In this document: in pieces, positions 4,720 to 35,092 of the stretch | Position numbering within the stretch: the first letter of the stretch is position 1 | Layout: every line of letters begins with the position of its first letter | DNA from: Bacteroidales bacterium | GTDB taxonomy: Bacteria; Bacteroidota; Bacteroidia; Bacteroidales; UBA12077 | Length of the DNA stretch: 37,716 nucleotides | Direction: 5' to 3' | NCBI GenBank assembly: GCA_030637515.1 | Contig: DAOWGM010000128.1 | Span: 1-37,716, forward strand | The notes under the pieces: model-generated | Told to the model about the DNA's origin: nothing | The model's input: the letters and a program-made list of their open reading frames with translations, nothing else | The model's database searches: none | Position numbers and translations under genes: made by a program

Positions 4720-5514
4720 ATGAAAATTACGAAATATATAAATGTTTTTCTTATATCATTTCTTTTAATTACAATAGGAACAATATACTCTTGTAAAGAG
4801 AAATCTCAAAATAACAATAGTGAAACTGAGCAAATAAATGTTCAGTTATTTGCAGCTACAGGAGCTATGGTTCCTTCCATTGAAATTTGTTATTCTTTTG
4901 AAACAAATAATAATATTAAAGTAGATAAAAACTTTGCTGCATCAGGTGCATTAGCACGACAGATTAAAGCAGGAGCTGAAGCTGACATTTATATTTCGGC
5001 AAATAAACAATGGATTGATTATTTAATTGAAAATAATTCAATTGTTGAAAATACAGCTGCAGAATTAGCTGGAAACAAACTTGTTGTAATTTGCAAGAAA
5101 GATTTAGATATCAAAATTAAATTCACCAAAGAGTTTGATATTAAATCAACAATCAAGGATAATATCTCAATGGGAGACCCAAAATATGTTCCTGTTGGGA
5201 AATATGCAAAACAAGTATTAGATTCGTTAGATTGGTTTAATAAAATACAAACCAATATTATTCTTGCAAAAGATGTAACATCGGTTTTACATTATGTTGA
5301 AATGGGTGAATGTGATTGGGGAATCGTGTATTATTCCGAAGCAATTAAGTCTGACAAAATTAAGATTGCTTATGAAATTCCATTGGAACTTTACGATCCA
5401 ATTATTTTTTATATTGCACTGTTAAATGAGAATACTCAAACAGCTCAGTTATATCAATATTTTTTAGATAATACAGCCAAAAATATTCTCAAAAAGAATG
5501 GATTTAACAAATAA
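4720..5514 (+). CDS. modA: Molybdate ABC transporter, substrate-binding lipoprotein ModA
   Basis: A 264-residue periplasmic binding protein of the ModA/WtpA type. The N-terminal signal peptide ends at a lipobox-like TIYSC, predicting a lipid-anchored protein. Family features are VQLFAATGAMVPSIEICYSF near the start of the mature protein, ASGALARQIKAGAEADIYIS with the oxyanion-contacting Ser, the MGDPKYVPVGKYAKQ loop, and the hinge segment ECDWGIVYYSEAI. It should bind molybdate (tungstate cannot be excluded) and deliver it to ModBC. It is the first gene of the modABC-xdhAB series, whose later genes are molybdoenzymes. No ModE-type operator was recognised in the 190 bases upstream. Confidence 0.93.
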   Translation: MKITKYINVFLISFLLITIGTIYSCKEKSQNNNSETEQINVQLFAATGAMVPSIEICYSFETNNNIKVDKNFAASGALARQIKAGAEADIYISANKQWIDYLIENNSIVENTAAELAGNKLVVICKKDLDIKIKFTKEFDIKSTIKDNISMGDPKYVPVGKYAKQVLDSLDWFNKIQTNIILAKDVTSVLHYVEMGECDWGIVYYSEAIKSDKIKIAYEIPLELYDPIIFYIALLNENTQTAQLYQYFLDNTAKNILKKNGFNK

Positions 5515-5552
5515 TAAACTATTAACTTGTAACTTTTACCTAATAACTAATC

Positions 5553-6236
5553 GTGTTTAGCTCTGAAGAAATATCTGTTATTTTATTAACCTTAAAAGTA
5601 GCTATAACAAGCACTTTGCTAACATTGCCTTTAGCAATCTGGTTAGGCTGGATTTTAGCCAGAAAAAACTTCTGGGGCAAATTCTTAGTTGAAGGTTTGG
5701 TGAATATACCTTTAGTGGCACCACCTGTTGTTACAGGTTATCTTTTATTAATAGTTTTAGGAAGAAACGGAATAATAGGTCAATGGTTTTATGAAACTCT
5801 CGGAATTAAATTTGCATTCAATTTCACTGCATTAATTATTGCATCGGTTGTTGTTTCGTTACCCTTAGCTGTTCGTAGCACAAAATCAGCTTTTGAATTA
5901 GTCGATCCGAATTATGAAAAAGCATCAGAATCACTTGGGGCATCAAAAACTGGAACATTTTTTAGAGTTTATTTACCTTTAGCTTTCCCAGGTATTTTGA
6001 GTGGTGCTGTGTTAGCTTTTGCTCGTAGCTTAGGTGAGTTTGGTGCTACAATATCTTTTGCAGGTAATATATTTGGTAAAACACAGACTATTGCTTTAAA
6101 TGTATATTCTAATATGCAAATACCTGGTAAAGAAATGCAAGTAACACGTTTAGTCATTATATCATTGGTAATTTCATTATTAGCAATAATTGCATCGGAA
6201 TATTTAAATAAGAAAAAGAGATATTTTGTAAGATGA
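5553..6236 (+). CDS. modB: Molybdate ABC transporter permease ModB
   Basis: A 227-residue inner-membrane permease with about five hydrophobic segments. It carries the permease/ATPase coupling (EAA) loop EKASESLGASKTGTFFRVYLP, followed by GILSGAVLAFARSLGEFGAT, which is characteristic of ModB. The start is GTG at 5553: a stop lies three codons upstream in frame and no suitable ATG follows. It overlaps modC by four bases (ATGA), indicating translational coupling. Confidence 0.94.
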   Translation: MFSSEEISVILLTLKVAITSTLLTLPLAIWLGWILARKNFWGKFLVEGLVNIPLVAPPVVTGYLLLIVLGRNGIIGQWFYETLGIKFAFNFTALIIASVVVSLPLAVRSTKSAFELVDPNYEKASESLGASKTGTFFRVYLPLAFPGILSGAVLAFARSLGEFGATISFAGNIFGKTQTIALNVYSNMQIPGKEMQVTRLVIISLVISLLAIIASEYLNKKKRYFVR

Positions 6237-7411
6237 TAATAAGATTCGAATCGGTAGAACACAAATTAGGTGAAAATCAATTTAGCTTTGATTTTCAGAC
6301 AAATAGCTCTATTACTGGAGTATTTGGTCCTTCCGGTGCGGGAAAAACAACCTTATTTAATTTATTATCTGGAGTTGACACACCAAAAAAAGGTAAAATA
6401 AAGCTCAATTCTGAGGTTTTAGTTGATATTGAAGGAAATCACATTGTTCAAGGAAAAAATAGAAATATTGGCTATGTTTTTCAAGAGAATCACTTATTTC
6501 CTCACTTATCAGTAAAAAAGAATTTATTGTACAGCAAACCATATATCAAAAATAAATCGCAATATTTTTCTTTTGAAGAAGTAGTTAGCTTATTAGATAT
6601 ATTACCATTACTTAATAAAAAACCCAGACAACTTTCGGGTGGTGAAAGACAACGAGTTGCTATTGGTAGAGCTCTTCTCTCCCAACCCCGTTTATTATTG
6701 CTTGATGAACCATTCTCAAATGTAGACTGTTCTAAGAGAAAGCAGATTATTTCATATTTACTCAGAATCAATAATCACTTCAAAATCCCAATGGTTATTA
6801 TTAGTCATCATTTGGAAGATATTCTTAAACTAACAAGAAAAATTGTTGTTATTGAAAATGGTAAATCAATAAATTCAGGTGATATATTTAATATTATTAA
6901 AAATGGAGAAAATCCTGAACTAATTAAATCTAAAAAATTTCAGAACACCTTTACAGCAAAGTTTGAAAGCTATAATCAAACTGAAAATATTTATCATTTG
7001 AATACTAAAGAAGATATCGAAATTAAGATTTCAAATCATTCTAAGTTATTGAATGAACAAACGAATAAAGGAACAAGAATTCAACTAAGCCTTAGACCTA
7101 CGGATATTGCTTTAAGTATTGATAAACACAAGGGAACAACAATACAAAATCAATTACAAGGAACTGTAAATAAGATTATTAAAAACAATGAAGGTGTTTT
7201 TTGTATTATCGATTGTGGGTTCGAAATATTTGTAGAAATATCTGAAGGAATTATTCATAATTTATACCTGCATGAAGGTCAGGAAATATATTGCCAGATA
7301 AAAGCCAATGATTTTGATGTAGTGCATGTATTTGATGAAATAGAAGAGGAAATAAAAAATAAATCATCAATAAAACACTCTGAAGAAATACTAATTTCTG
7401 AAAGATCATAA
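6233..7411 (+). CDS. modC: Molybdate ABC transporter ATP-binding protein ModC
   Basis: A 392-residue ATPase that powers ModAB. Walker A GPSGAGKTTL is near residue 33, the Q-loop is in VFQENHLFPH, the ABC signature is LSGGERQRVAIGRALL, Walker B is LLLLDEPFSNVD, and the switch His is in IISHHLED. The C-terminal part from about residue 225 carries TOBE/Mop-like repeats (LSLRPTDIALS, GTVNKIIKNN), typical of ModC and thought to sense oxyanion. The start codon overlaps the modB stop. It is 28 bases from the next gene, so transport and hydroxylase genes are probably one transcript. Confidence 0.95.
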   Translation: MIIRFESVEHKLGENQFSFDFQTNSSITGVFGPSGAGKTTLFNLLSGVDTPKKGKIKLNSEVLVDIEGNHIVQGKNRNIGYVFQENHLFPHLSVKKNLLYSKPYIKNKSQYFSFEEVVSLLDILPLLNKKPRQLSGGERQRVAIGRALLSQPRLLLLDEPFSNVDCSKRKQIISYLLRINNHFKIPMVIISHHLEDILKLTRKIVVIENGKSINSGDIFNIIKNGENPELIKSKKFQNTFTAKFESYNQTENIYHLNTKEDIEIKISNHSKLLNEQTNKGTRIQLSLRPTDIALSIDKHKGTTIQNQLQGTVNKIIKNNEGVFCIIDCGFEIFVEISEGIIHNLYLHEGQEIYCQIKANDFDVVHVFDEIEEEIKNKSSIKHSEEILISERS

Positions 7412-7422: not shown

Positions 7423-7440
7423 TAATTAACGAGTTAATTA
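7423..7440 (+). promoter_or_regulatory. Small hairpin ending on the xdhA start codon
   Basis: TAATTAAC and GTTAATTA can pair. The right arm includes the A of the ATG at 7440. Folded, it would mask the translation start between modC and the hydroxylase subunit. AT-only stems of this size also arise by chance. Confidence 0.25.
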
Positions 7441-8840
7441 TGATAACATTTATTCTAAATAATAAACTTATACAAACTGAAGCCCATCCGGGAACTACTT
7501 TACTTGATTTTGTTCGATATGGTGAAAATTTACCGGGAACTAAAATTGGTTGTCGTGAAGGTGATTGTGGAGCTTGTACGGTTTTGGAAGGAACTTATAG
7601 CAACAACATAGTACATTATAAAAGTATTGTATCTTGTCTTACTCCTCTTGGAAATGCACAAGGGAAACATATTGTAACAATCGAAGGTGTAAATATGAAA
7701 GAATTATCACCTGTTCAAAACGCTATGGTTGATAATGCCGGAACGCAATGTGGTTTTTGCACTCCTGGATTTGTGATGTCACTAACTGGTCATGGTCTTT
7801 CAGAAGAACCGTCAGATAAAGAAAAAGCTATTGCTGCTATTAGTGGAAATATTTGTCGCTGTACCGGATACAAATCAATTGAAAAAGCAGCAGAAAGCAT
7901 TTCTGAATTATTGAAAGTAAAAGATATCAATGATCCTGTAAAATGGTTAGTTGAAAATCAATTTTTACCAGAATATTTTCTTGAGATTAGTAGCAGATTA
8001 AATCAAATCGAGAATAAAACCAAATCGATTGAGAATTCAAAAATAATTGGTGGTGGAACAGATTTAATGGTTCAAAAACCTGAAGAGATAGCAGAATCAG
8101 ATATCAATTTATATTATCAAAGAGATGATTTAAAAGGGATTAAAGAAGATGTAGATTCTATTATTATTGGATCTGCAACAAATACAGGAGAAATAATGAA
8201 ATCACCTGTGATGCTGAAGTATTTTCCTGATATTGAATCACATTTTAAATTGATTTCATCAGAGCCAATTCGAAATATGGGAACTATTGCCGGGAATTTT
8301 GTAAATGCATCTCCTATTGGCGATTTAAGTATATATTTTCTGGCGTTAAATGCAAGTATCATTTTAAAAGAATCAAAGAATACCCGAAAAATACCTTTAA
8401 AAGATTTCTTTTTAGATTATAAGAAATTGAATCTCGTAAAAGATGAATATATTGAATCAGTTCGTGTTCCAATACCAAAACAGAAATATCTTTTTAATTT
8501 CGAAAAGGTAAGTAAACGAACTCATTTAGATATTGCCAGCGTTAATTCAGGCATTTATTTAAAAGTAAACGAAGATCTTATTGAAGAATGTTCGGTTTCT
8601 GCTGGCGGAGTTAGTGCAATTCCAAAATATTTGAGTAAAACATCAGAGTATTTAGTTGGGAAAAAGATTACAAACGGAACTGTTTTTAAAGCAAATGAAA
8701 TTCTACAGGAAGAAATATCTCCAATTAGTGATGTTCGCGGAAGTGTTGATTATAAAAGACTGTTATTAAGACAGTTATTCTTTGCTCACTTTATTAAACT
8801 ATGCCCTAATAGTATATCATTAAACGAATTATTAAGCTAA
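7440..8840 (+). CDS. xdhA: Xanthine dehydrogenase small subunit: fused 2Fe-2S and FAD domains (XdhA type)
   Basis: A 466-residue electron-transfer subunit of a molybdenum hydroxylase. The N-terminal plant-type 2Fe-2S cluster uses C38, C43, C46 and C66. The second 2Fe-2S domain uses C104, C107, C139 and C141 (QCGFCTPGF, NICRCTGYK). From about residue 200 an FAD-binding domain follows, with KIIGGGTDLMVQ and MGTIAGNFVNASPIGD, and a CO-dehydrogenase-flavoprotein-like C-terminal part. This order matches the small subunit of two-subunit bacterial xanthine dehydrogenases, where electrons pass from Mo through the clusters to FAD. The Mo subunit starts 14 bases after the stop. It carries the only FAD domain of this kind in the window. 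Confidence 0.92.
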   Translation: MITFILNNKLIQTEAHPGTTLLDFVRYGENLPGTKIGCREGDCGACTVLEGTYSNNIVHYKSIVSCLTPLGNAQGKHIVTIEGVNMKELSPVQNAMVDNAGTQCGFCTPGFVMSLTGHGLSEEPSDKEKAIAAISGNICRCTGYKSIEKAAESISELLKVKDINDPVKWLVENQFLPEYFLEISSRLNQIENKTKSIENSKIIGGGTDLMVQKPEEIAESDINLYYQRDDLKGIKEDVDSIIIGSATNTGEIMKSPVMLKYFPDIESHFKLISSEPIRNMGTIAGNFVNASPIGDLSIYFLALNASIILKESKNTRKIPLKDFFLDYKKLNLVKDEYIESVRVPIPKQKYLFNFEKVSKRTHLDIASVNSGIYLKVNEDLIEECSVSAGGVSAIPKYLSKTSEYLVGKKITNGTVFKANEILQEEISPISDVRGSVDYKRLLLRQLFFAHFIKLCPNSISLNELLS

Positions 8841-8854: not shown

Positions 8855-11107
8855 ATGAAAAATATAGATTCAAAAAATCACGTTACAGGCAGATCGGTTT
8901 ATGTTGATGATATACCTGTTCAGACTGGAACTCTTTACGGCGCAATTTTCGGATCACCTAAAGCTCATGGTAAAATCAAAAGCCTTGATTTATCGAAAGC
9001 AGAAGCTCTTGAAGGCGTTGAAAGAATTTTCACTTATAAAGATATTCCCGGAAAAAATCAGATCGGTGGTATAATTGAAGACGAACCTCTTTTAGCTGAA
9101 GATGAAGTTCATTTTGTAGGTCATCCTGTTGCATTTATTGTTGCAAAGAATGAGAAAATAGCACAAAAAGCTGCTAAGCTTATTAAAATAGATATTGAAG
9201 AATTTGAAATCATTACTGATCCTCGTAAAGCACAGAAAAAAGGACATTTACTAATTCCTCCTCGAACATTTCATATAGGCGATGTAAAAAATGAATGGTC
9301 GAAATGCGAATCCATTTTTGAAGGCAAAGTTGAAATTGGTGGTCAGGAACACTTATATATTGAGACACAAGGTTCTTATTCTTATCCAATAGATAACGGA
9401 AGTATAAAAATTCATTCATCTACTCAAGGTGCTACTCTGGTACAGAAGATTGCTGCACAAGTTTTAGGATTACCAATGCACCGAATTGAAGTTGATGTTG
9501 CACGATTAGGTGGAGCTTTTGGAGGGAAAGAAGATCAGGCAACAGCATATGCTTGTATGGCAGCTTTGGCTTCATACATCTTAAAAAAACCTGTTAAACA
9601 CATATTACATCGTTTAGATGATATGCACATGACAGGTAAGCGTCATCCGTATAGTGCCGATTTTAAAATTGGCTTATCGAAAGACCATAAGATATTAGCT
9701 TTTCAAACTACCATGTATCAGAATGGTGGCGCTGCAAATGATTTGTCTCCTGCAATTATGGAACGTACTTTGTTTCATACAACCAATGTTTATTTTATTC
9801 CTAATACCAAAGTTACAGTTTACAGTTGCAAAACTAATTTACCTCCAAACACTGCTTACAGAGGCTTTGGTGCTCCACAGGGAATGTTTTTAATTGAATC
9901 GGCTATTGCTAAGGCAGCATACGAACTGAATGTCCCTAAAAGAACAATTCAGGAGAAAAATTTCATCAAAGAAAATGATCTATTCCAATACGGACAAATA
10001 GCTGAAAATGTAAATATTACAAACTGCTATCAAACTGCTAAAAAAAAGTATCATATTGATAAGATTGAAAAAGATATTCAGGAATTTAATTCTAAGAATC
10101 CAAACCATAAAAAAGGTATGGCAGTTATGCCGATTTGTTTTGGAATATCCTTCACAAAAACTCCAATGAATCAGGCTCGTGCATTGGTTCATATTTATCA
10201 GGATGGAAGCCTTGGAATTAGCACAGGAGCAGTTGAAATGGGACAAGCTGTTAATACAAAAATGATACAGGTAGCAGCAAAAGTGTTCTCTATAAATACA
10301 GATAGAATTAAAATTGAATCAACCAACACAACACGTGTTGCAAATACTTCTCCTACAGCAGCAAGTTCAGGAGCAGATTTAAACGGAAATGCTTTACGAA
10401 TAGCGTGTAATGCTTTATTAGAGAGATTAAAAGAAACCGCAGCAAAAATGCTTTCTTGTAAGGTTTCTGAAGTTTCAATTGTGGATGAAACTGTACTAAA
10501 AAATGGAAAGAAAACAGAAATTCTATGGGAGTCATTAATTGAAACTGCATTCTTAGATCGTGTTTGTCTTACTGAAAACGGTCATTATGCTACTCCAATA
10601 ATTCATTTCGACAAAACCAAAGAAAAAGGACATCCGTTTGCATATCATGTTTATGGAGCTGCAATTATAACTGTTACTTTAGACTGTATTCGTGGAACCT
10701 ACGAATTCGACGATGTAAAAATCGTTCATGATTTTGGAAATAGTATGAACTCAACTATTGACAATGGTCAGGTTGAAGGAGCTATTGTACAAGGAATTGG
10801 CTGGATGACAATGGAAGAATTAGCTTTCGGAAAAGACGGACGTTTATTATCAAATAGTTTATCGACATACAAAGTGCCTGATATTTATTCTATTCCTAAA
10901 AACATTGAAATTACAGCATTAAAAACTGAAGGTCCTGAATTAGCTTTATTACGCTCTAAAGCCATTGGAGAACCACCATTTATGTATGGAATTGGAGCTT
11001 ATTTTGCTTTAACAAAAGCAATTAGGGAATTTAATTCGAATTATAAGCTCGATTTTGATTCTCCATTAACTCCAGAGAAAGTTTTAATGAGATTGTACCA
11101 AAAATAA
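8855..11107 (+). CDS. xdhB: Xanthine dehydrogenase molybdenum-binding subunit (XdhB type)
   Basis: A 750-residue Mo-pyranopterin subunit, close to the usual XdhB length. Visible family motifs are GGQEHLYIETQGS (active-site Glu loop), RLGGAFGGKEDQA, HMTGKRHPYSADFKIG (Arg that in xanthine dehydrogenases positions purine), AYRGFGAPQGM, GAVEMGQAVNTK, and the catalytic base E706 in KAIGEPPFMYG. The Arg and the GEPP signature favour purine hydroxylation (hypoxanthine or xanthine to urate, or the reverse under reducing conditions) over CO oxidation or aldehyde oxidation. It works with the 2Fe-2S/FAD subunit immediately upstream and ends at a hairpin shared with the convergent mocA-like gene. Substrate is inferred from motifs. 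Confidence 0.92.
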   Translation: MKNIDSKNHVTGRSVYVDDIPVQTGTLYGAIFGSPKAHGKIKSLDLSKAEALEGVERIFTYKDIPGKNQIGGIIEDEPLLAEDEVHFVGHPVAFIVAKNEKIAQKAAKLIKIDIEEFEIITDPRKAQKKGHLLIPPRTFHIGDVKNEWSKCESIFEGKVEIGGQEHLYIETQGSYSYPIDNGSIKIHSSTQGATLVQKIAAQVLGLPMHRIEVDVARLGGAFGGKEDQATAYACMAALASYILKKPVKHILHRLDDMHMTGKRHPYSADFKIGLSKDHKILAFQTTMYQNGGAANDLSPAIMERTLFHTTNVYFIPNTKVTVYSCKTNLPPNTAYRGFGAPQGMFLIESAIAKAAYELNVPKRTIQEKNFIKENDLFQYGQIAENVNITNCYQTAKKKYHIDKIEKDIQEFNSKNPNHKKGMAVMPICFGISFTKTPMNQARALVHIYQDGSLGISTGAVEMGQAVNTKMIQVAAKVFSINTDRIKIESTNTTRVANTSPTAASSGADLNGNALRIACNALLERLKETAAKMLSCKVSEVSIVDETVLKNGKKTEILWESLIETAFLDRVCLTENGHYATPIIHFDKTKEKGHPFAYHVYGAAIITVTLDCIRGTYEFDDVKIVHDFGNSMNSTIDNGQVEGAIVQGIGWMTMEELAFGKDGRLLSNSLSTYKVPDIYSIPKNIEITALKTEGPELALLRSKAIGEPPFMYGIGAYFALTKAIREFNSNYKLDFDSPLTPEKVLMRLYQK

Positions 11108-11112: not shown

Positions 11113-11175
11113 TAGCCTCATGCTTCAAGCTTCAAGGAATTTCAATAAATAAACTTGGAGCTTGAGGCTTGTAGC
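11113..11175. terminator. Imperfect hairpin between the convergent xdhB and mocA-like genes
   Basis: GCCTCA..CAAGCTTCAAG at 11115-11136 pairs imperfectly with CTTGGAGCTTGAGGC at 11154-11168, across an AT-rich loop. Its place between two converging stop codons suggests a bidirectional terminator. It lacks a strong T run, and it may be a degenerate dispersed repeat. Confidence 0.45.
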
Positions 11176-11780
11176 TAATCAAAATTCTTTCTATACTCTT
11201 CAGTAGTATTGATATTGACCAAAACTTTTTCATCTTCAACTGGCACTTTTATTTTAAGGAATTGGTTTAGAAATTCTTTCAAGTGCTTTCGATCTTCTTC
11301 TACTTGCGCAATTTCTTTAATTACTTTTTCGGATAATAAGAATGGATGCCCTCCTTTTCCTTCAAACTCAGGACTTATATAATCAGCTGTATTTATATTA
11401 TTAAATAATGCTTTTAATACATCATTATTTACGAATGGATTATCCACATTATGAATAAATACAGAATGAGTTTCTGATAAACTCTTCGCTCCTATTTTAA
11501 GTGAATAAAACCTGTGCCACTCAGGATGTTCGTTTATTACAACTTTCACAATATCAGGAAACTGGATCTCATATTTATTCAAATATTCAAACCCTATTTC
11601 GTTTACAACGACAGCAATATCTTTACAGCCAAAACTCAAATATTCACTAATTATGTGCTCTATAAAATTTTCCTTTTCATCATACCTTAATGATAGTTTT
11701 GGGAAACCCATCCGTTCTGATTTTCCGGCTGCAAGTATAATAGCAGAAAATTCTTTTTCGTTTACATTATTTCGCTTCAT
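11175..11780 (-). CDS. MocA/YgfJ-like molybdenum cofactor nucleotidyltransferase
   Basis: A 201-residue member of the NTP-transferase fold. The nucleotide-binding loop AIILAAGKSERMGFPK near residue 14 is the MocA/MobA signature, and IHNVDNPFV is the metal-binding acidic motif. MocA adds CMP to molybdopterin to give the cytosine dinucleotide form used by many Mo hydroxylases. YgfJ, its paralogue in the E. coli purine cluster, is the better contextual match because the gene lies between xanthine dehydrogenase and ygfK. It is divergent from ygfK with a palindrome between them. Whether it makes MCD or another nucleotide form cannot be read from sequence. Confidence 0.85.
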   Translation of the reverse strand: MKRNNVNEKEFSAIILAAGKSERMGFPKLSLRYDEKENFIEHIISEYLSFGCKDIAVVVNEIGFEYLNKYEIQFPDIVKVVINEHPEWHRFYSLKIGAKSLSETHSVFIHNVDNPFVNNDVLKALFNNINTADYISPEFEGKGGHPFLLSEKVIKEIAQVEEDRKHLKEFLNQFLKIKVPVEDEKVLVNINTTEEYRKNFD

Positions 11781-11961: not shown

Positions 11962-14900
11962 ATGACGGACAAGTTTTATCCTATATCAATCAATCAATTA
12001 TTACAGATTATCTTAAAAGAATACAATACCAACAAAAGTATTTTTGGCATTCCTGAAGAATTGTTCTTTAATCCAGTAAAAAACAATGAATTCAAAGTTG
12101 ATCAATTTAATCAAAATATTGACTCACCACTGGGAGTTGCTGCTGGTCCGCATTCTCAAATGTCTCAAAATATTATTGGAGCATGGTTAACAGGTGCAAG
12201 ATATATTGAACTGAAAACAATACAAACCTTAGATGAACTTGAAATTGCAAAACCTTGCATTGATATGCAAGATGAAGGATATAACTGTGAATGGTCGCAA
12301 GAATTAAAGATTAAGGAAAGTTTTAATGAATATCTGAATGCATGGATTATAATCCATATTCTGAATCATAAATTTGCATGGAATAAAGAGATTGGAACTA
12401 TTTTCAATATGAGCGTTGGTTATAATCTGGAAGGAATTCTTAAGGAAAACGTTCAATGGTTCTTCGATAAAATGAATGATTGTACAGTTGAGTTACAAGA
12501 GAAAGTCAATAAAGTAAAAGAAGTTTATCCTGAAATAAAATCAATAGACATTCCTTCACAAATTTCAAATAACATTACTTTATCGACCATGCACGGCTGC
12601 CCGGCCAACGAGATTGAAGATATAGCGAAGTATCTTTTAGAAGAAAAAAATCTACATACATTCGTTAAACTAAATCCAACTTTGCTGGGACCAGAATTTT
12701 TAAGAGAAATCTTAAACGACAATTTGAATTTCAAAACCAATGTTCCGGATATTGCTTTTGAGCACGATTTGAAATATCCTGATGCATTAAAAATTATTCG
12801 CACCTTACAAGAAACAGCAAAGCAAAAGAATTTACACTTCGGATTAAAACTGACTAATACATTAGAATCTGTAAATAATAAATCCGTTTTTGGTTCCGAA
12901 ATAGAAATGATGTATATGAGTGGTCGCGCTTTGCATCCTATTTCAATTAATGTTGCAAAAAAATTGCAAAACGAATTTAATGGAGAGCTGCAATTATCGT
13001 TCTCTGCAGGAGCCGATGCATTTAATATTTCTGACATACTTTCTTGTGGATTTAAGACTGTTACCGTATGTTCTGACATATTGAAACCTGGTGGTTACAT
13101 GCGATTGAATCAGTATTTCGAAGAACTTCAAATACATGATTCGTTCAAAGTCTCTAAAGAAATAGCCTTAAGCAATCTAAATAATTATGCAGAAAGAGTA
13201 TTAGAATCAGATCAATATAAAAGAAATGCAATAAAAGATCCTGACATAAAAACGGAGCGTAATTTAGGCTTTTTCGATTGTATCTCAGCTCCTTGTAAAG
13301 ATACGTGTGCTACAAATCAGGACATTCCGAATTATTTGCATTATACTTCTACCGGTCAGTTTGATAAAGCATATGAAGTGATTTTAAAAACAAATCCATT
13401 TCCAAGTATAACAGGAATGGTATGCGATCATTTATGTCAAAATAAATGCACAAGAGTTAATTATGATAACTCTCTTTTAATTCGCGAAGTAAAACGATTT
13501 ATTTCTGAACAGGAAGAAGTAAAGCTAAGTGCATCTGACAAAAACAAACTAAAAGTTGCCATTATTGGAGCTGGACCATCAGGACTATCTTGTGCATACT
13601 ACTTGGCTTTAGCAGGATTTTCAGTTGAAGTATTTGAGTCAAACTCCAAAGCAGGCGGAATGGTTCAGTACGCTATACCTGGTTTTAGATTAACCGACGA
13701 AGCAATTGAAAAAGACTTCAAACGTGTAACCGATTTAGGTGTTCAAATACATTATAATCAGAGAATTAACAAAGAAACATTCCAAAGCGTTAAAACAAAC
13801 TATAACTATTTATTCATAGGTGTAGGCGCTCAACTCTCAGCTCCTTATAAACTGGACGGAATAAAATCAAAAGGAGTTTTAGATTCTTTAGAATTTTTGT
13901 TCAATGCTAAAAAAGGAGAAGAAACAGGAATTGGTAAAAATGTAGTAATTATTGGTGGTGGGAATACCGCCATGGATGCAGCACGAACCGCATATCGTTT
14001 AGTTGGAAAAGAAGGTAAAGTAAGTATTGTATATCGACGTACGATTAATGAAATGCCCGCTGATCAAGGAGAGATTAAGGCTATTTTAGAAGAAGGAATG
14101 GAAATAATGGAGCTAATTGCTCCAGAAAAAGTCTTAAGTGATAATGGTAAGCTTAAAGCACTTTTATGCAGCAAAATGGAATTAGGAGAAAAGGATTCTT
14201 CGGGAAGACCAAGACCAGTAAAAATTGAAGGATCAGAATTTGAAATTCCTTGTGACACTATTATTCCAGCTATTGGTCAAAGTTTGGATATTGATTTTAT
14301 TCAAGAAAAGTTATTAAAAGCTGAAATTGAGAATTACCAAACACAACTGGAAAATATTTTTATTGGCGGTGACGCTTTACGAGGTGCAGCAACAGCAATT
14401 AAAGCAATTGGTGATGGACGAAAAGCTGCTGAAAAAATTATTAAAAAATCAGAAATTGATTTTAGCATTCAGAAACCAACGAATGGAAAATCACTAAGCA
14501 AGAAAGAACTAATTCTAAAAAGAGCTGAAAGAAAATTTGCTCCAGAATTAATTGAATTAGATATTAATGATCGCAAAAACTTTAAACTTGTAAGTGAAAC
14601 TTTAGATCAAGAAACCATTATAAAAGAAGCTGCTCGCTGTTTGCAATGCGATGAAATCTGTAATATTTGCACAACCGTTTGTCCTAATTTTGCAAACTAT
14701 TCATACGAAATTGAACCTGTAACATATTATCTACAAAAAGTGATTCAGTTTGAAAATGGAGAACAGGAAATTGAAAATGAAGGATTGTTTGAAGTGAATC
14801 AGAAGTATCAAATCTTAAATATTGCAAATTACTGTAACGAATGTGGTAATTGTAATACCTTCTGCCCTACTAACAGCGCTCCTTATAAAGAAAAGCCTAA

Positions 14901-15239: not shown

Positions 15240-15701
15240 TTATAAAATAAAATTCTGCTTAACTTTTGTTTCAGACATTACAAACGAACTATAAAACTGT
15301 GTGATATTACCAATCACAGAAAACTTAGTTGTAATAAAATGATGAAAATCGTCCATGTCATTACAGAAAACTTTCAATAAGAAATCAGAACTACCTGAAA
15401 TGTAGTAGGATTCCATTACTTCATCCAATTTTCCCATTTGAGCTTCAAATTCCTCAATTGCTTCTTTCGTATGCTTATTTAGTGATACAGAAATATATAC
15501 AATAAGTTTCTTCCCAATCATTTTTGGGTCAACCATTGTTATATACTGTTGAATGTAACCATTTTTCTCCAGCTTCTTAATTCGCTCGTGAATTGGAGTT
15601 GTAGATAAATGCAATTTTTCAGAAAGTTCTCGAATAGTTATCCTACTGTTAGTCTGCAGAATATTCAGTAGTTTCTTATCAATTTCATCTAATGCTTTCA
15701 T
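15240..15701 (-). CDS. Lrp/AsnC family transcriptional regulator
   Basis: A 153-residue regulator. The N-terminal winged helix (LDEIDKKLLNILQTNSRI, then TIRELSEKLHLSTTPIHERI) is followed by the RAM ligand-binding domain (LIVYISVSLNKHTKEAIEEF, ESYYISGSSDFLLKVF). Family members sense amino acids as octamers or dimers. It is transcribed away from the 494-residue PLP-enzyme gene, with 163 bases between, the classic arrangement of an Lrp-type regulator and its target. It may therefore respond to an amino-acid intermediate of the pathway, such as a diamino acid; that is inference. The gene has a near-perfect Bacteroidetes promoter. Confidence 0.92.
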   Translation of the reverse strand: MKALDEIDKKLLNILQTNSRITIRELSEKLHLSTTPIHERIKKLEKNGYIQQYITMVDPKMIGKKLIVYISVSLNKHTKEAIEEFEAQMGKLDEVMESYYISGSSDFLLKVFCNDMDDFHHFITTKFSVIGNITQFYSSFVMSETKVKQNFIL

Positions 15702-24803: not shown

Positions 24804-24812
24804 CTCCATAGA

Positions 24813-24881
24813 TGTCATACTGAGTATTAGCGAAGTATCTCTTAAACCAAATAGAGATTCTTCACTTCGTTCAGAATGACA
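24813..24881. repeat. Dispersed palindromic repeat, copy B (two half-units)
   Basis: A variant unit TGTCATACTGA..GAAGTATCT at 24813-24840 faces AGATTCTTC..AGAATGACA at 24855-24881. It begins nine bases after the DUF1566 gene stop. Confidence 0.8.
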
Positions 24882-24905
24882 TGAACTTTTAATAATTAAT
24901 CATTT

Positions 24906-24944
24906 AAAGAGCAAGATACAGAAAGTATTTTGCTCTTTTTTTTT
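24906..24944 (+). terminator. Rho-independent terminator downstream of the DUF1566 gene
   Basis: AAAGAGCAA (24906-24914) pairs with TTGCTCTTT (24930-24938). An inner ATAC/GTAT extends the stem around AGAAA, and a run of nine T follows. It also insulates the next lipoprotein gene. Confidence 0.88.
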
Positions 24945-24977
24945 GTTTTAATACTATATTCGGTATAAAATAGTTTG

Positions 24978-24985
24978 TACATTTG
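24978..24985 (+). promoter_or_regulatory. Putative -7 element of the second lipoprotein gene
   Basis: TACATTTG fits TAnnTTTG exactly and lies 22 bases before ATG 25008. No TTTG is present at -33. Confidence 0.4.
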
Positions 24986-25007
24986 AATAAGATAAAGAAA
25001 TGTGAAT

Positions 25008-26074: not shown

Positions 26075-27442
26075 ATGAATATTCTAATTAAAAACGGAAC
26101 CGTAGTAACATCCACTCAAGCATTTAATTCTGACATATATATTACTGATGGTAAAATAGTTCAATTAAGCGAATCATTAAATATTCTTGAACCCATTGAT
26201 AATACAATTAATGCATCAGGCAAACTCATCTTCCCTGGCGGGATAGATCCGCATGTTCATATGCATTTGCCAACGCCTGCAGGATATTCTGCCGATGATT
26301 TTGAAATAGGAAGTAAAGCTGCTCTTTTAGGAGGAACAACTACCCTGCTCGATTTTGTTACTCCACAAAAAGGACAATCGCTAATTGATGCTTTAATTGA
26401 CAGAAAAGCAGAAGCAGATAATTCTCTTTGTGATTATTCATTCCACGTTAGCCCTGTTGAATGGAATAAAAATACTGAACAAGAAATTACAGATTGTATA
26501 GAATCAGGAATCACTTCTTTTAAAGTGTATATGGCTTATAAAGATAGTATTGGTTTGAAAGATGATGATATTTTAAAGGTTATGCAAATTGTAGGTAAAG
26601 CTGGTGGAATTGTTACGCTGCATTGCGAATTAGGTGACGATATTGATAAGTTTAGAGAGGAATTGGGTCAAATTGGCAAATTAAGCCCTAAATTTCATCC
26701 TGTTTCTCGACCTGACTATACCGAAGCAGATGCTGTAAAAAATGCAATAGAAATGGCTAAAAAAGCTAATTGTCCTATATATATTGTTCATACATCAGCA
26801 GCAGAATCCGTTAAATATATTGAAGAAGCACAAAAATCAGGACAGCAGGTTTATTCAGAAACTTGCCCGCAGTATTTATTACTAAATGATTCTAAATATA
26901 TTGGTGATTTTAAAGACAGTTCTAAGTTTGTAATGAGTCCGCCATTACGTAAAAAGGAAGACCAGAATTCATTGTGGAGTGCCATAAATAAAGGTGTTAT
27001 AAAAACGATTGGAACAGACCACTGCCCTTTTACTCTGGAGCAAAAAGAACAAGGACTTAATGATTTCAGAAAAATACCAAATGGTGCAGGTGGTGTTGAA
27101 CATAGAATGACATTACTTTTTTCGTATGGTGTTTTGCAAAACCGAATTAATTACAATCAGTTTGTTGATATTACTTCAACACAGGCTGCAAAAATATTTG
27201 GTTTATATCCACAGAAAGGAGAAATAGCAGTTGGCTCAGATGCGGATATACTTATTTGGAATCCAAAAACTGAAAGTACAATTTCCGTTGAAAATCATCA
27301 TCAGAATTGCGATTTAGAAATCTACGAAGATGCAAAAACAGTTGGTGTTCCTGAGATTGTTATTTCGAATGGTGAAGTAGTTGTTGAAGACGGAAAGTTA
27401 ATTTCTGATACTAAAGGTAGATTTTTGAAGCGAAATATTTAA
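26075..27442 (+). CDS. hyuA: Dihydropyrimidinase/D-hydantoinase family amidohydrolase HyuA
   Basis: A 455-residue cyclic amidohydrolase. Metal ligands are visible in PGGIDPHVHMHLP, the carboxylated lysine K150 in TSFKVYMAYK, the His of VTLHCELGD, the His of YIVHTSAAES and the Asp of IGTDHCPFT. The family opens hydantoin or dihydropyrimidine rings to N-carbamoyl amino acids. In E. coli hyuA belongs to the same region as ygeW, ygeY and ygfK. In this locus a ureide or hydantoin intermediate of purine breakdown is the likely substrate (inference). It sits only eight bases after a lipoprotein gene and is followed by dispersed repeats. Confidence 0.92.
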   Translation: MNILIKNGTVVTSTQAFNSDIYITDGKIVQLSESLNILEPIDNTINASGKLIFPGGIDPHVHMHLPTPAGYSADDFEIGSKAALLGGTTTLLDFVTPQKGQSLIDALIDRKAEADNSLCDYSFHVSPVEWNKNTEQEITDCIESGITSFKVYMAYKDSIGLKDDDILKVMQIVGKAGGIVTLHCELGDDIDKFREELGQIGKLSPKFHPVSRPDYTEADAVKNAIEMAKKANCPIYIVHTSAAESVKYIEEAQKSGQQVYSETCPQYLLLNDSKYIGDFKDSSKFVMSPPLRKKEDQNSLWSAINKGVIKTIGTDHCPFTLEQKEQGLNDFRKIPNGAGGVEHRMTLLFSYGVLQNRINYNQFVDITSTQAAKIFGLYPQKGEIAVGSDADILIWNPKTESTISVENHHQNCDLEIYEDAKTVGVPEIVISNGEVVVEDGKLISDTKGRFLKRNI

Positions 27443-31458: not shown

Positions 31459-31493
31459 AAAAGAGAGTAGGTTATAAACCTACTCTCTTTTTA
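31457..31493. terminator. Bidirectional terminator overlapping the ygeW stop codon
   Basis: AGAGAGTAGGTT (31462-31473) pairs with AACCTACTCTCT (31477-31488) around a three-base loop. A runs on the left and T runs on the right make it work both ways. The ygeW stop (31472-31474, minus strand) lies at the tip of the stem and loop. Confidence 0.9.
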
Positions 31494-32659
31494 TCCCTTT
31501 TAAGGATTTTATCTAACACTTCGTTTGGCTTTTCAAATTTGTTGGTAAACATCATTGCAGCAATAATATATGGTTTAAAGCCTGCTTCCAAATAAGTTTT
31601 TATTCTATATTTCTCAAATACATCACCATCAACTTCACCTTCTTTACAAGAAACACCGCTAATATCGGCAGGTAAACAGTGCATATACAAAGCATCCTGA
31701 TTTTTAGTTAATTTCTTTTTTTCTTCGTCGTATTCCCAATCTTTATATTTAGCGTTATTTGCTAAACAAGTCTGTTCAAGAGCTTTTAAACCTTCTGTAT
31801 CTTTATTTTTCAACAACTCTGTTCTTTGTTGCATAATATGAAATGGAGCCCAACTTTTTGGATATACAATATCAGCATCTTTTACTGCCTCTTCCATCGA
31901 ATGACTTATTTTGAATGATCCACCACTTTCCTCTGAATTCTTTTTAGCAATCTCTACAATCTCTGGAATCAAGTCATATCCTTCAGGATAAGCTAATTCA
32001 ATATCCATTCCGTAACGAGACATTAAACCAATTATACCTTGTGGTACTGATAATGGTTTTCCATAACTTGGCGAATAAGCCCAGCTCATTACAATCTTTT
32101 TACCTTTTAGATTCTCTAATGAACCAAACTCCTTTTGCAAATGCATTAAATCTGCCATCGATTGTGTTGGATGATCCTGATCACACTGTAAATTTACAAT
32201 TCCGGGACGTTCAGGCAATACTCCCTTTTCAAATCCTTCGTCTAAAGCATCTCCTACTTCACGCATGTATTTATTTCCTTCACCAAGATACATATCATCA
32301 CGAATTCCAATAAAATCCGAAAGAAAAGAAATCATATTTGCTGTTTCACGAACAGTTTCTCCGTGTGCAATTTGTGATTTTTGCTCGTCTAAATCCTGAA
32401 CAGCACAACCTAATAAGTTACTTGCCGATGCATATGAAAATCGTGTACGGGTTGAGTTATCACGGAAATTTGAAATTGCTAATCCTGAATCAAAAACACT
32501 TGGAGAAATATTATTATCTCTCATTTCTTTTAAAATCTCAGCAACTTCCAATATCCCTTTTAAATCATCTTTACTTTTTTCCCAGGTTAGTAAGAAGTCT
32601 TTTTTGTAAAGATCAGTTTTTAACTGACCCAGCTTGTTAATCTTATCTTGTAAACTCAT
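31472..32659 (-). CDS. ygeW: Knotted carbamoyltransferase YgeW
   Basis: A 395-residue aspartate/ornithine-carbamoyltransferase superfamily member of the YgeW type. The carbamoyl-phosphate loop is DNSTRTRFSYASA; further motifs are HGETVRETANM, DQDHPTQSMADLMHL (HPTQ) and MHCLPADISG (HCLP). E. coli YgeW has a trefoil knot and is regarded as a catabolic transcarbamylase of unsettled substrate. In the purine locus it would transfer the carbamoyl group of a ureido-amino acid to phosphate. It is 21 bases behind ygeY, so the two form one minus-strand operon. A carbamate kinase to use the product is not in the window. Confidence 0.94.
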   Translation of the reverse strand: MSLQDKINKLGQLKTDLYKKDFLLTWEKSKDDLKGILEVAEILKEMRDNNISPSVFDSGLAISNFRDNSTRTRFSYASASNLLGCAVQDLDEQKSQIAHGETVRETANMISFLSDFIGIRDDMYLGEGNKYMREVGDALDEGFEKGVLPERPGIVNLQCDQDHPTQSMADLMHLQKEFGSLENLKGKKIVMSWAYSPSYGKPLSVPQGIIGLMSRYGMDIELAYPEGYDLIPEIVEIAKKNSEESGGSFKISHSMEEAVKDADIVYPKSWAPFHIMQQRTELLKNKDTEGLKALEQTCLANNAKYKDWEYDEEKKKLTKNQDALYMHCLPADISGVSCKEGEVDGDVFEKYRIKTYLEAGFKPYIIAAMMFTNKFEKPNEVLDKILKRDKKRVGL

Positions 32660-32680
32660 ATGTTTTCTTTTTCAAAATTA

Positions 32681-33868
32681 TTAAATCTCGTAAGCAAAAG
32701 CAGCATAAAATGAAGCTGCTATAACTAAATCATCAATAGCTACTTTCTCGTTTGGAGCATGTGCTAAAACTTCATTTCCAGGACCAAAACCAATTGTTGG
32801 AATTCCATAAACACCATTGGTCATAATTCCATTTGTAGAGAATGTCCATTTATCAATTTTAACATCTTTATTGAATAGATTTTTAAATGTACGAACACCT
32901 GTTTGAACTACTTCGTGATCTTCAGGCATTTTCCAAGTCGGATAATATTTCTCCATTCCGTACTCTAAACCAGTATATGAAGTTTCTAAATAATCAAGAA
33001 CTTCAACTTTTGCGTTCATTCCTTTTATTAACTCTTCAATTTCTGCAACAGCAGATTCTTTGGTTTCGCCCCAAGTTAAACGACGATCCAAATGAATACG
33101 TGCATAATCGGAAACAGCACAAAGCGAAGGACTTCCAGAAATAACCTCTGAAATTGTAATACTTCCTTTACCTAAGAACTCATCAAATTTTAATCTTTCG
33201 TGCAATTGCTCAATCTCTAAAGCAGTTTTAGAAGCCATGTAAATAGCATTCTTTCCACGTTCCGGAGCCGAACCATGCGATGAAACACCATAAAAATGTA
33301 CGTGCATTTCCATACGTCCACGATGTCCACGATATATATTTAAATTAGTAGGCTCTGTACTAATTACAAAGTCTGGTTTTATTTTATCTTCTTCAACAAT
33401 ATATTTCCAACATAAACCATCACAATCTTCTTCAATTACACTTCCAACGAAATATATGGTAAGATCTTTATCGAAACCTAATTCTTTTAATATTCTACCT
33501 GTAGTAACAAATGCAGCTGGTCCACCTTCCTGATCAACAGTTCCACGACCGTGAACAAAACCATCTTTAATTTCACCACCAAGCGGATCAAAATCCCAGT
33601 TGTCCATATTTCCCATATCAACAGTATCCATATGACCATCGATTGCAAGAACCTTTTTTCCATTCCCTATTCTACCAATCACATTTCCTAAACCATCAAT
33701 GTATACTTCATCAAAGCCAGCTTCTTCCATCTGTCTTTTAAGTTCTAACTGAACTTCTTTTTCACCTAAGCTTAATGATTTGATTTGCACTAATTTTGAT
33801 AAGTTCTCTGCAGTATAATCGCGATACTTCTCTGATAATTCGTTAATTTTTTGAAAGATATTTTCCAT
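32681..33868 (-). CDS. ygeY: YgeY-type M20 family hydrolase
   Basis: A 395-residue zinc-dependent M20 amidohydrolase/deacetylase. Ligands and catalytic residues appear in AIDGHMDTVDMGN (His, Asp), GRGTVDQEGGPAAF (Asp), SVIEEDCDG (Glu-Glu), STEPTNLNIYRGHRG (Glu) and EVLAHAPNEKV (His). The pattern and the neighbour ygeW fit the YgeY family, called selenium-metabolism-linked hydrolase in annotation systems. It probably cleaves an amide or ureide bond in the purine-breakdown pathway; the real substrate is uncertain. It is the first gene of the ygeY-ygeW operon and divergent from xdhC across 267 bases. Confidence 0.93.
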   Translation of the reverse strand: MENIFQKINELSEKYRDYTAENLSKLVQIKSLSLGEKEVQLELKRQMEEAGFDEVYIDGLGNVIGRIGNGKKVLAIDGHMDTVDMGNMDNWDFDPLGGEIKDGFVHGRGTVDQEGGPAAFVTTGRILKELGFDKDLTIYFVGSVIEEDCDGLCWKYIVEEDKIKPDFVISTEPTNLNIYRGHRGRMEMHVHFYGVSSHGSAPERGKNAIYMASKTALEIEQLHERLKFDEFLGKGSITISEVISGSPSLCAVSDYARIHLDRRLTWGETKESAVAEIEELIKGMNAKVEVLDYLETSYTGLEYGMEKYYPTWKMPEDHEVVQTGVRTFKNLFNKDVKIDKWTFSTNGIMTNGVYGIPTIGFGPGNEVLAHAPNEKVAIDDLVIAASFYAAFAYEI

Positions 33869-34101
33869 ATTATTTCTATTCTAAATTATTCAAGTGCTAA
33901 AGTTACATTTTTTATCTTATCCAATAAATAATCAGGATAGTTTTATACATTATAGTTTTTAATATAGAATTTTTAAATACTAAGTAATCATTTTTAAGAA
34001 TTTTATTCTACCAATGAATAATAAAGTCAAAAAAGAGTCTTCAATTTAGATATAAAACATAAAAACTGTATTTTAAGAACCTAATATTACCTAATTCATT
34101 G

Positions 34102-34109
34102 TATTTTTG
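34102..34109 (+). promoter_or_regulatory. Putative -7 element of xdhC
   Basis: TATTTTTG fits TAnnTTTG and lies 27 bases before ATG 34136. No matching -33 TTTG. The rest of the 267-base ygeY-xdhC gap is plain AT-rich sequence. Confidence 0.35.
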
Positions 34110-34135
34110 ATATGTAAAAATTAAAGTAATTTATT

Positions 34136-35092
34136 ATGGATGTTTGGAGTTTTATTCAAAAAGAATTATCAGAAAATAATAATGTAATGCTTATAACTGT
34201 TGTTGAACGAAACGGAAGTAGTCCGGGTATTGTAGGGTTTAAAATGGCAATTTCAGAAACTGGAGCAATGACAGGTTCAATTGGTGGTGGTGTAATGGAA
34301 TACAACATGGTTGAATTAGCAAAAAAGGAGGCAAAAATAGGAAACCAAAAAGCATTCATTAAGAAACAAATACATAAAGCTGATGCAGGAAAAGATAAAT
34401 CAGGTTTAATGTGCTCTGGGGAGCAAACTCATGCTTTTACTCTGTTTGATTCTTCTAAAAAAGAAATCATTAATAATATTACAAATCGATTAGATAAAGG
34501 AGAAAATGGAGCTCTTACTTTAAATCAAAATGGAATCTCTTTTGATGAAACAATAACAGTATCCAACAAAATCAACTACCAATTTAGAAATGAAGAGAAC
34601 TGGGAATACACAGAACAAATCGGTTTAAAACCTACGCTTTACATTTTTGGAGCAGGTCACGTGAGCTTACCAATGAGTCAGATATTTAGAATATTGGATT
34701 TCAATGTTGTGGTTTACGATAACCGTGATGAACTTTCTACATTCGAAAATAACCAATACGCACATCGTAAAAAAATTATTGACTTTAAAGAAATTTCTGA
34801 TTTAGTTCCCGAAGGAGAAAACAGTTACGCTGTAATAATGACAGTCGGCCATAAAAGCGACGAATTGGTACTTAAACAACTCGTTACTAAAAAGCTAAAG
34901 TATCTGGGAATGATTGGAAGTAAAAACAAAGTAAAAACCATATATGACTCTCTAATTAACAAAGGAATTTCTGAAACTGATCTTGCAAAAGTAGATTCAC
35001 CAATCGGCTTATCCATAAACAGCAAATCAACGGCTGAAATAGCAATTAGTATTGCAGCTAAAATTATTCAAGTAAAAAATACAAACAAATAA
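34136..35092 (+). CDS. xdhC: XdhC/CoxI family molybdenum cofactor sulfurtransfer/insertion chaperone
   Basis: A 318-residue protein with both XdhC domains. The N-terminal CoxI part has VVERNGSSPGIVGFKMA and TGSIGGGVMEYNMV. The C-terminal Rossmann domain has TLYIFGAGHVSLPM, YDNRDEL, MTVGHKSDELVL, YLGMIGSKNKV and GLSINSKSTAEIAIS. XdhC binds the Mo cofactor, keeps it sulfurated and hands it to the hydroxylase. LMCSGEQTHAF contains the Cys region often important in the family. The E. coli counterpart in the purine cluster is YqeB. It probably serves XdhAB, XdhD or both, although the genes lie over 13 kb apart. The companion YqeC is not present. Confidence 0.92.
   Translation: MDVWSFIQKELSENNNVMLITVVERNGSSPGIVGFKMAISETGAMTGSIGGGVMEYNMVELAKKEAKIGNQKAFIKKQIHKADAGKDKSGLMCSGEQTHAFTLFDSSKKEIINNITNRLDKGENGALTLNQNGISFDETITVSNKINYQFRNEENWEYTEQIGLKPTLYIFGAGHVSLPMSQIFRILDFNVVVYDNRDELSTFENNQYAHRKKIIDFKEISDLVPEGENSYAVIMTVGHKSDELVLKQLVTKKLKYLGMIGSKNKVKTIYDSLINKGISETDLAKVDSPIGLSINSKSTAEIAISIAAKIIQVKNTNK

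Follow-up and report, generated by a model that had tools for sequence, protein, structure and literature searches.

Urate can be degraded by a reductive pathway which was solved in 2025 with the enzymes of Escherichia coli and Clostridia (excerpt of PMC12507026; PMC12990295). In E. coli, urate is reduced by XdhD-YgfM to 2,8-dioxopurine (yanthine), YgfK and SsnA lead to ureidomethyl-hydantoin, HyuA forms 2,3-diureidopropionate, YgeW and YgeY strip the ureido groups, and YgeX yields pyruvate and ammonia (same excerpt; PMC12990295). The chemistry of these families was shown for the enzymes of E. coli and Clostridioides difficile (excerpt of PMC12507026), and also for Clostridium sporogenes, as told in PMC12990295. 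The two groups behind the solution of the pathway report different orders for the loss of the ureido groups, and the order of the final reactions and their stereochemistry are still open (PMC12990295). Here, a stretch of 37,716 nucleotides from an uncultured Bacteroidales bacterium (contig C125, positions 1-37716, referred to as the window) was analyzed. It carries a gene cluster of this kind in which no YgeX was found and two consecutive pyridoxal 5'-phosphate (PLP) enzymes, named PLP-A and PLP-B, are encoded. It was proposed that the locus is, on balance probably, a YgeX-less variant of the reductive urate pathway, in which PLP-B would be the likely substitute for YgeX and PLP-A would act on the same amino acids in a further reaction.

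The E. coli cluster (XdhD-YgfM, YgfK, SsnA, HyuA, YgeW, YqeA, YgeY, YgeX) shares with the window the YgfK, SsnA, HyuA, YgeW and YgeY families. A carbamate kinase in the genome and the linkage of MocA and a maturation factor for molybdenum cofactor hydroxylases are further likenesses. Unlike the E. coli cluster, the locus has PLP-A and PLP-B and lacks a recognizable YgeX, the carbamate kinase lies outside it (contig C117; 367 bits, cut-off 358), the molybdoenzyme is of the TIGR03311 type without a YgfM-like neighbour, the maturation factor is XdhC and not YqeB, no PF00860 permease was found in the genome, and the regulator is of the Lrp type, whereas the sigma54 activator YgeV was not seen in the window. 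The EF2563-EF2582 region of Enterococcus faecalis (Haft and Self, excerpt of PMC2276186) has in common with the window a single fused FeS/Mo enzyme of the EF2570 type, YgeW, YgeY, HyuA, YgfK and SsnA. The same excerpt also lists YgeX (EF2579), YqeB, YqeC and SelD for E. faecalis, and YgeX, YqeB and SelD had no match in the window. The C. difficile variant (UacX, UacY; excerpt of PMC12507026) shares a xanthine dehydrogenase (XDH) homologue without a subunit for flavin adenine dinucleotide (FAD); in contrast to that variant, the window keeps YgfK and YgeW, and the missing step is that of YgeX. An earlier note on this DNA had assigned the locus to urate and purine breakdown. The assignment agrees with the gene content, but it was incomplete, as the absence of YgeX and the two PLP enzymes at 15865-18819 had been overlooked.

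The gene families were assigned with NCBIfam (curated cut-offs) and Pfam scans of the window proteins. YgeX (TIGR03528, cut-off 532 bits) was not found in the window or in its own genome, an incomplete metagenome-assembled genome (MAG) of 4.13 Mb in 185 contigs with 91% completeness and 7.7% contamination. The best match to TIGR03528 in this genome was PLP-B at 42.8 bits, a superfamily similarity, and one other match scored 21.7 bits; PLP-A gave no match at E 0.001. The columns of YgeX Asp120 and Asp189, which we take to be the two catalytic aspartates, hold Thr and Asn in both PLP-A and PLP-B. A close sample comprised 59 genomes: 20 from the genus, the own one among them, 5 from a second genus of the family and 34 from other families of the order. 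The TIGR03528 cut-off was passed by none of the 59 (own included), and strong matches occurred only in G050 (366 bits) and G038 (276 bits). A phylum sample consisted of 395 genomes including the own one; PLP-A (E <= 1e-80) was present in 34 of the 394 others, all of another class of the same phylum. YgeX of at least 300 bits was present in 7 of these 34, either on another contig or at least 127 kb from PLP-A (G182).

The linkage of the PLP pair to the pathway was well supported. YgfK (E <= 1e-150) was detected in 16 of the 20 genus genomes (own included), in 0 of 5 of the other genus of the family and in 7 of 34 of the other families. Across the same 59 genomes, 23 were positive for YgfK and 24 for PLP-A (22 for both, 1 and 2 for one only, 34 for neither; Fisher 7e-13). 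The discordant genus members were fragmentary: the PLP-A contig of G001 carried a fragment of YgfK, G005 (79% complete) had PLP-A in two pieces, and in G008 the contig ended inside ygfK. Outside the genus (39 genomes), 7 genomes had PLP-A together with YgfK and 32 had neither, with no discordant genome (6.5e-8). The Fisher values include shared ancestry, and the seven positives from outside the genus represent seven families. PLP-A and ygfK lay on different contigs in G034, G036, G048 and G051, so the association was more than adjacency.

The neighbourhoods of PLP-A were then compared in the best 80 of 562 PLP-A relatives, referred to as the named loci. By record names, 62 of them were Bacteroidota, nearly all uncultured MAGs, and 18 were other taxa; the phyla beyond Bacteroidota were taken from MAG record names and may include mis-binned contigs such as the 3.7-kb Izimaplasma contig (L086). 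The core genes counted were ygfK, xdhD, ssnA, hyuA, ygeW and ygeY. A strict count (at least 40% identity over at least 150 residues) was preferred over looser bit cut-offs, which admit YgfK-like matches of 200-300 bits, not above those of two control loci, and ssnA/hyuA-like matches of ~30% identity. By the strict count, at least one core gene was in view in 66 of the 80 loci and at least two in 50. The bit cut-offs gave ygfK in 46, xdhD in 51, ssnA in 40, hyuA in 24, ygeW in 16 and ygeY in 16 loci, as well as PLP-B in 52, YgeX in 2 and both of the latter in none. A second set, the distant loci, consisted of 9-19 kb stretches from 20 of the 34 phylum-sample genomes with PLP-A. At least one core gene was found in 18/20 and at least two in 13/20 by the strict count (20/20 and 17/20 at the looser cut-offs). 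The strict count found core genes in 0 of 26 control loci, which total 165 kb and are mostly 3-8 kb each, shorter than the test loci. At the looser cut-offs the controls gave YgfK-like matches in L002 and L003 and a YgeX match in a Bosea locus. ORF (open reading frame) calling on neighbours in G+C-rich loci yields doubtful antisense ORFs, and L104 and L115 were left out of alignment A3 because of a stop or ambiguous bases.

The gene order was conserved in the genus. The genes ygfK, lrp (minus strand), PLP-A, PLP-B and xdhD stood in a row in 13 other genus genomes (G001, G003, G004, G006, G007, G011-G014, G016-G019), ygfK being partial in G001 and G004. The row was interrupted by contig ends in G002, G005 and G008, and in G010 ygfK and PLP-A were on separate contigs. 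The hyuA gene was followed by ygeW and ygeY in G003, G006, G007, G012 and G017; neither was found in the 4.9 kb examined beyond hyuA in G016. The recurrence of the same core order across the genus confirmed that the gene grouping pointed out in the earlier note is not due to chance, and the term "rearranged" used there holds only relative to E. coli. The xdhAB genes were located at most 4 kb from mocA in 8 of 10 genus contigs reaching there, 12 kb away in G003, and were not seen in G006; modABC adjoined xdhAB in the genus except in G017. Owing to this variable placement, what had been described as the locus's own molybdate transporter is present beside xdhAB, but as a frequent neighbour and not as a constant part. 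The dnaA gene upstream of the cluster was also present in G003, G007, G013, G016, G017 and G019; since dnaA and the cluster are colinear in the relatives, a mis-binned contig was dropped as an explanation.

An Lrp/AsnC regulator, 80-93% identical, was found at the same place in the genus. A conserved regulator of this type divergent from PLP-A fits an amino-acid signal.

PLP-B passed the threonine synthase model TIGR00260 and has the N-terminal CxxC motifs of that family. It differs from threonine synthase in being a second copy beside a higher-scoring ThrC (contig C5, 254 bits), in forming a separate clade and in abutting xdhD. Hence, PLP-B is not the sole candidate for threonine synthase, and its role as the housekeeping enzyme was dropped. 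Although the passed cut-off would agree with an ordinary threonine synthase lying in the locus by accident, this was regarded as very improbable, because a better-scoring ThrC is present, PLP-B accompanies PLP-A across families and classes, and the stop of PLP-B lay at most 30 bases from the xdhD start or overlapped it in 38 of 46 measurable loci (by 4 bases in 26), the xdhD starts being alignment estimates.

PLP-A belonged to no Pfam family beyond PF00291 (PALP) and to no specific family model; its best NCBIfam match was CysK (TIGR01139) with 102 bits, below the cut-off of 351. The AlphaFold2 (AF2) model had a pLDDT (predicted local distance difference test) of 89.9 and a pTM (predicted template modelling score) of 0.91, and its nearest folds among 50 listed Foldseek matches were cystathionine beta-synthase (CBS), beta-cyanoalanine synthase and CysK (E 2e-15 to 2e-13, 19-26% identity). 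With these enzymes PLP-A shares the fold-type II core, the aligned PLP lysine and the carboxylate-loop motif, and it differs from them in its length of 494 aa (amino acids) and in additional helices at both termini, outside the shared core. In a tree of 28 rows PLP-A stood beside CysK/CysM, and the PLP-B clade was apart from the E. coli and own ThrC and from YgeX; the deep nodes were weak.

The relation of both enzymes to YgeX was examined in the loci where YgeX occurs. The order in G050/L124 was ygfK, PLP-A, YgeX, while in the genus PLP-A is followed by PLP-B. In the SAR324 locus L142 the order was yqeA-ygeW-ygeY-ygeX-PLPA, and in the Aminicenantes locus L136 a truncated YgeX was located 10 kb from PLP-A. 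PLP-A as a plain replacement of YgeX was dropped since both coexist in these few loci, and this coexistence suggests that PLP-A supplements the reaction of YgeX in some way. Homologues of PLP-A (41-43%) were also found on Bosea and Rhizobium plasmids, near an M20 hydrolase, an amino-acid ATP-binding cassette (ABC) transporter and TauE. On the Bosea plasmid (L162 12070-24775, L204) RidA, pyruvate carboxylase and a gene for YgeX that contains an in-frame stop were present, and an Lrp-type regulator was ~20 kb off the PLP-A homologue. These regions look like a diaminopropionate-type setting with no urate genes in view. The proposal of PLP-B as the YgeX substitute and PLP-A as a further step was drawn from the order in G050, the coexistence with YgeX, the plasmid homologues and the Lrp/AsnC regulator.

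The roles may also be reversed: PLP-A would then end the pathway as diaminopropionate lyase, with PLP-B or YgeX as an accessory enzyme acting, for example, on the other enantiomer or on albizziin. PLP-A is the constant member, with loci that show PLP-B, YgeX or neither, and it was located 21-64 bases from ygeY in 6/20 distant loci, which favours PLP-A as the lyase. Moreover, E. coli YgeX accepts both enantiomers of diaminopropionate (excerpt of PMC12507026), a task which two enzymes could share. However, YgeX in G050 stands in the place of PLP-B and not of PLP-A, and a PLP-B-family protein of at least 370 bits was retained somewhere in 33 of the 34 distant PLP-A genomes (not in G214), matches of 130-230 bits forming a separate lower group; in 18 of these 33 it was on the PLP-A contig within ~25 kb. 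The reversal was considered unlikely.

It was judged similarly doubtful that PLP-A is a beta-replacement enzyme which diverts diaminopropionate or albizziin to biosynthesis, for instance to cysteine with sulfide, leaving catabolism to PLP-B or YgeX. In sequence, tree and fold PLP-A is closest to CysK, CBS and beta-cyanoalanine synthase; this closeness, its coexistence with YgeX without redundancy and the TauE-type sulfite exporter near the Rhizobium and Bosea homologues would all be in line with such a role. Yet no sulfur gene was recognized beside PLP-A in the window, and the vicinity of RidA and of the YgeX with the in-frame stop on the Bosea plasmid fits elimination chemistry equally.

The pathway with PLP-B in the place of YgeX was modeled as follows. 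Hypoxanthine and xanthine would be oxidized to urate by XdhAB, served by MocA, XdhC and molybdate from ModABC, and the FAD-less XDH homologue starting at 18816 would reduce urate to 2,8-dioxopurine (yanthine). The pyrimidine ring would be reduced and opened by YgfK and SsnA, and the hydantoin ring by HyuA with the formation of 2,3-diureidopropionate. YgeW is predicted to transfer one carbamoyl group to phosphate, and the carbamate kinase encoded elsewhere would make ATP from the carbamoyl phosphate. The other ureido group may be removed by YgeY, resulting in 2,3-diaminopropionate or in the ureido precursor albizziin. These compounds would be handled by the two co-occurring PLP enzymes instead of YgeX: PLP-B most likely as the ammonia-lyase producing pyruvate, and PLP-A putatively in a further reaction of the alpha-aminoacrylate type, a beta-elimination or a beta-replacement, with these C3 amino acids as substrates.

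The gene annotated as xdhD in the earlier note encodes an XDH-type molybdoenzyme of the TIGR03311 type and not the E. coli XdhD, to which it is 28% identical; the E. coli type model TIGR03313 gave only 214 of 1102 bits. EF2570 of E. faecalis is presumably of the TIGR03311 type as well. An excerpt of PMC11448449 presents EF2570 as an XDH that depends on selenium and, by similarity to it, C. difficile xdhA5 as coding for both a Mo centre and an FeS part. E. faecalis is listed among the urate degraders carrying this cluster (excerpt of PMC12507026), and within the excerpt of PMC2276186 the Haft and Self table shows no Mo enzyme other than EF2570 in the E. faecalis column. Since E. faecalis is listed as a urate degrader and EF2570 is its only listed Mo enzyme, a TIGR03311-type enzyme is, by analogy, a reasonable candidate for the urate reductase.

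Two SelD matches were found in the own genome, a 345-aa frame (C160) and a 744-aa frame (C126), the latter perhaps a fusion. No SelD match (E 1e-20) was obtained in G036, G040, G050 and G056, which are all at least 96% complete and have YgfK and PLP-A. The cleanest case was G056 with ygfK-PLPA-PLPB-xdhD-ssnA in one row. Selenium as a requirement was dropped on account of these four near-complete genomes. The protein at 34136, introduced earlier as an XdhC/YqeB homologue, proved to be of the XdhC type and gave no match to YqeB (TIGR03309) at E 0.001, the rest of the genome not having been searched with this model. From the SelD-less relatives and from XdhC rather than YqeB, a sulfur-ligand molybdoenzyme is possible. 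In eight distant loci (L175, L177, L178, L180, L181, L188, L192, L193) PLP-A was accompanied by XdhB/XdhC-type subunits closer to those of E. coli, and their YgfK was either E. coli-like or a weaker YgfK-like protein. These Bacteroidota loci are perhaps further variants of the pathway.

The SsnA protein is colinear with E. coli SsnA and adjoins xdhD. It keeps the His/Glu/Asp motifs, which we take to be metal ligands. SsnA (E <= 1e-60) was detected in 25 of the 59 genomes, in 22 of them with at least 314 bits; at this threshold it was missing in the PLP-A genomes G005, G019 and G036.

The source of urate was also considered. A PF00860 permease (UacT/NCS2-type urate:H+ symporter) was absent from the 91%-complete genome, other transporter families not having been searched. 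This absence favours an internal salvage of purine and nucleic-acid nitrogen over the uptake and breakdown of external urate, and xdhAB beside the reductive genes could supply urate internally. Nevertheless, such salvage was thought rather improbable, as the missing permease is a limited argument in an incomplete genome. That this organism degrades urate we infer from the locus.

Several observations weigh against a YgeX-less urate pathway with PLP-B in the place of YgeX. Some of the named PLP-A loci are the same contigs as close-sample genomes (e.g. L073 and G018), so the two sets are not independent. No core gene was in view in 14 of the best 80 loci (PLP-B in 5 of these), and in a few of the loci lacking pathway genes the neighbours of PLP-A had no shared theme. 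The strict count found no core gene in the distant loci L182 and L194, and PLP-B was beside PLP-A in only 3/20 distant windows. PLP-A coexists with YgeX in the three loci named above; in G050 a sensor-kinase-like gene, and not xdhD-ssnA, is downstream of YgeX, so the exchange of PLP-B for YgeX is read solely from the place after PLP-A. The SsnA model cut-off was passed in none of the 59 genomes, the window protein included, and G036 (99% complete, with YgfK and PLP-A) had no SsnA match at E 1e-60. The missing PF00860 permease belongs here as well. In E. coli XdhD, an insertion with Glu606 was proposed for the specificity for yanthine; the window enzyme has a gap at that column, a weak indication in an alignment at 28% identity, and its product could therefore differ. 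Finally, what each enzyme does in this organism, and how PLP-A and PLP-B share their work, is what we infer.

The features of the locus are collected in the table. The modABC, xdhAB, MocA-like, ygfK, xdhD-like, ssnA, hyuA, ygeW, ygeY and XdhC-like genes were recovered by NCBIfam and Pfam where the earlier note had placed them, and its spacings of 28 bases between modC and xdhA and of 14 bases between xdhA and xdhB were reproduced.

Table. Features of the window with the evidence for their assignment
Feature	Position	Strand	Evidence
dnaA	3061..4494	+	Pfam DnaA domains; anchor, outside the pathway
modA, molybdate-binding protein	4720..5514	+	TIGR01256 159 bits, cut-off 62.5
modB, molybdate permease	5553..6236	+	TIGR02141 233 bits, cut-off 182.6
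modC, molybdate ATPase	6233..7411	+	TIGR02142 297 bits, cut-off 285
xdhA, 2Fe-2S and FAD subunit of xanthine dehydrogenase	7440..8840	+	TIGR02963 357 bits, below cut-off 467; Fer2, Fer2_2, FAD_binding_5
xdhB, molybdenum subunit of xanthine dehydrogenase	8855..11107	+	TIGR02965 780 bits, below cut-off 849.5
MocA-like molybdopterin cytidylyltransferase	11175..11780	-	TIGR03310 103 bits, below cut-off 186
ygfK, predicted yanthine reductase	11962..15183	+	TIGR03315 972 bits, cut-off 835; 40% to E. coli YgfK
Lrp/AsnC-type regulator, divergent from PLP-A	15240..15701	-	best NCBIfam match Lrp 116 bits, below cut-off 233
PLP-A, uncharacterised fold-type II PLP enzyme, 494 aa	15865..17349	+	PF00291 only, 54 bits
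PLP-B, threonine-synthase-like PLP enzyme, 416 aa; 4-base overlap with xdhD	17569..18819	+	TIGR00260 194 bits, cut-off 167
XdhD/XdhAC-type molybdoenzyme (2Fe-2S and Mo, no FAD domain), predicted urate to yanthine reductase	18816..21365	+	TIGR03311 877 bits, cut-off 830
ssnA, predicted dihydro-yanthine aminohydrolase	21456..22721	+	TIGR03314 347 bits, below cut-off 455; 34% to E. coli SsnA
Protein with three N-terminal helices (probably membrane) and a GNAT-like domain	22806..23438	+	no Pfam family
hyuA, D-hydantoinase	26075..27442	+	TIGR02033 541 bits, cut-off 393; 39% to E. coli HyuA
ygeW, carbamoyltransferase	31472..32659	-	TIGR03316 645 bits, cut-off 500; 69% to E. coli
ygeY, M20 hydrolase	32681..33868	-	TIGR03526 509 bits, cut-off 321.5; 51% to E. 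coli
XdhC-type maturation factor	34136..35092	+	NF045664 217 bits, TIGR02964 126 bits (cut-off 162), both below cut-off

The G+C content of the window was 28-35%, and no tRNA genes were found in it. At its right end ThiL- and FabF-like genes were located, and the left end holds dnaA and, to judge by their sequence, a putative amidase-like gene and a putative mce-like gene. The position of the helix/GNAT protein, with ssnA on one side and hyuA on the other, is conserved throughout many relatives, both within the genus and in some other families. As a transporter it seems doubtful, since the listed Foldseek matches were GNAT acetyltransferases (AF2 pLDDT 75) and the similarity to Imp-YgjV was only 9 bits. 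Two genes lie between this gene and hyuA (23562-26066), one for an Lcl_C-domain protein and one for a lipoprotein-like protein that matches no Pfam family. The segment 28069-30389 between hyuA and ygeW carries a NAD-epimerase-like gene, a short-chain dehydrogenase/reductase (SDR) and a TetR regulator; this block was present in G003/L078 and not found there in G006, G012 and G017, i.e., it is a presence/absence insert. A C_GCAxxG_C_C redox protein (30619-31458) was not found in the loci of the relatives examined. PADLOC gave no match for four proteins.

With regard to the distribution of the pathway, its genes were listed in Actinobacteria, Bacillota, Fusobacteria and Proteobacteria (excerpt of PMC12542679), and SsnA was listed in Pseudomonadota, Bacillota, Chloroflexota, Actinomycetota, Spirochaetota and Elusimicrobiota (excerpt of PMC12507026). 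Bacteroidota were not named for this cluster in the excerpts of PMC12507026, PMC12542679 and PMC13219045. No publication on PLP-A or on a YgeX-less urate cluster was found in a literature of partial coverage, which does not prove absence from print. In a neighbourhood survey YgeX was scored by PF00291 (excerpt of PMC12507026), and a published gutSMASH rule counts ygeX among its six markers (excerpt of PMC12542679). PLP-A and PLP-B alike match PF00291, so such a survey or rule could hide the substitution.

The chances were taken to be even that environmental anaerobic Bacteroidota and, in the case of PLP-A and by record names, also Aminicenantes/Acidobacteria, Spirochaetes and others have a YgeX-independent exit from the urate pathway, in which PLP-B would be a diaminopropionate lyase derived from threonine synthase and PLP-A a new enzyme of the albizziin/diaminopropionate branch. 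If this is true, marker rules based on ygeX may overlook these organisms, and scans taking any PF00291 protein as YgeX would mis-assign them. The urate gene set is widespread in one uncultured Bacteroidales genus, with related sets in other classes of the phylum. The PLP pair offers concrete targets for the open part of the pathway, namely the order and stereochemistry of its last steps.

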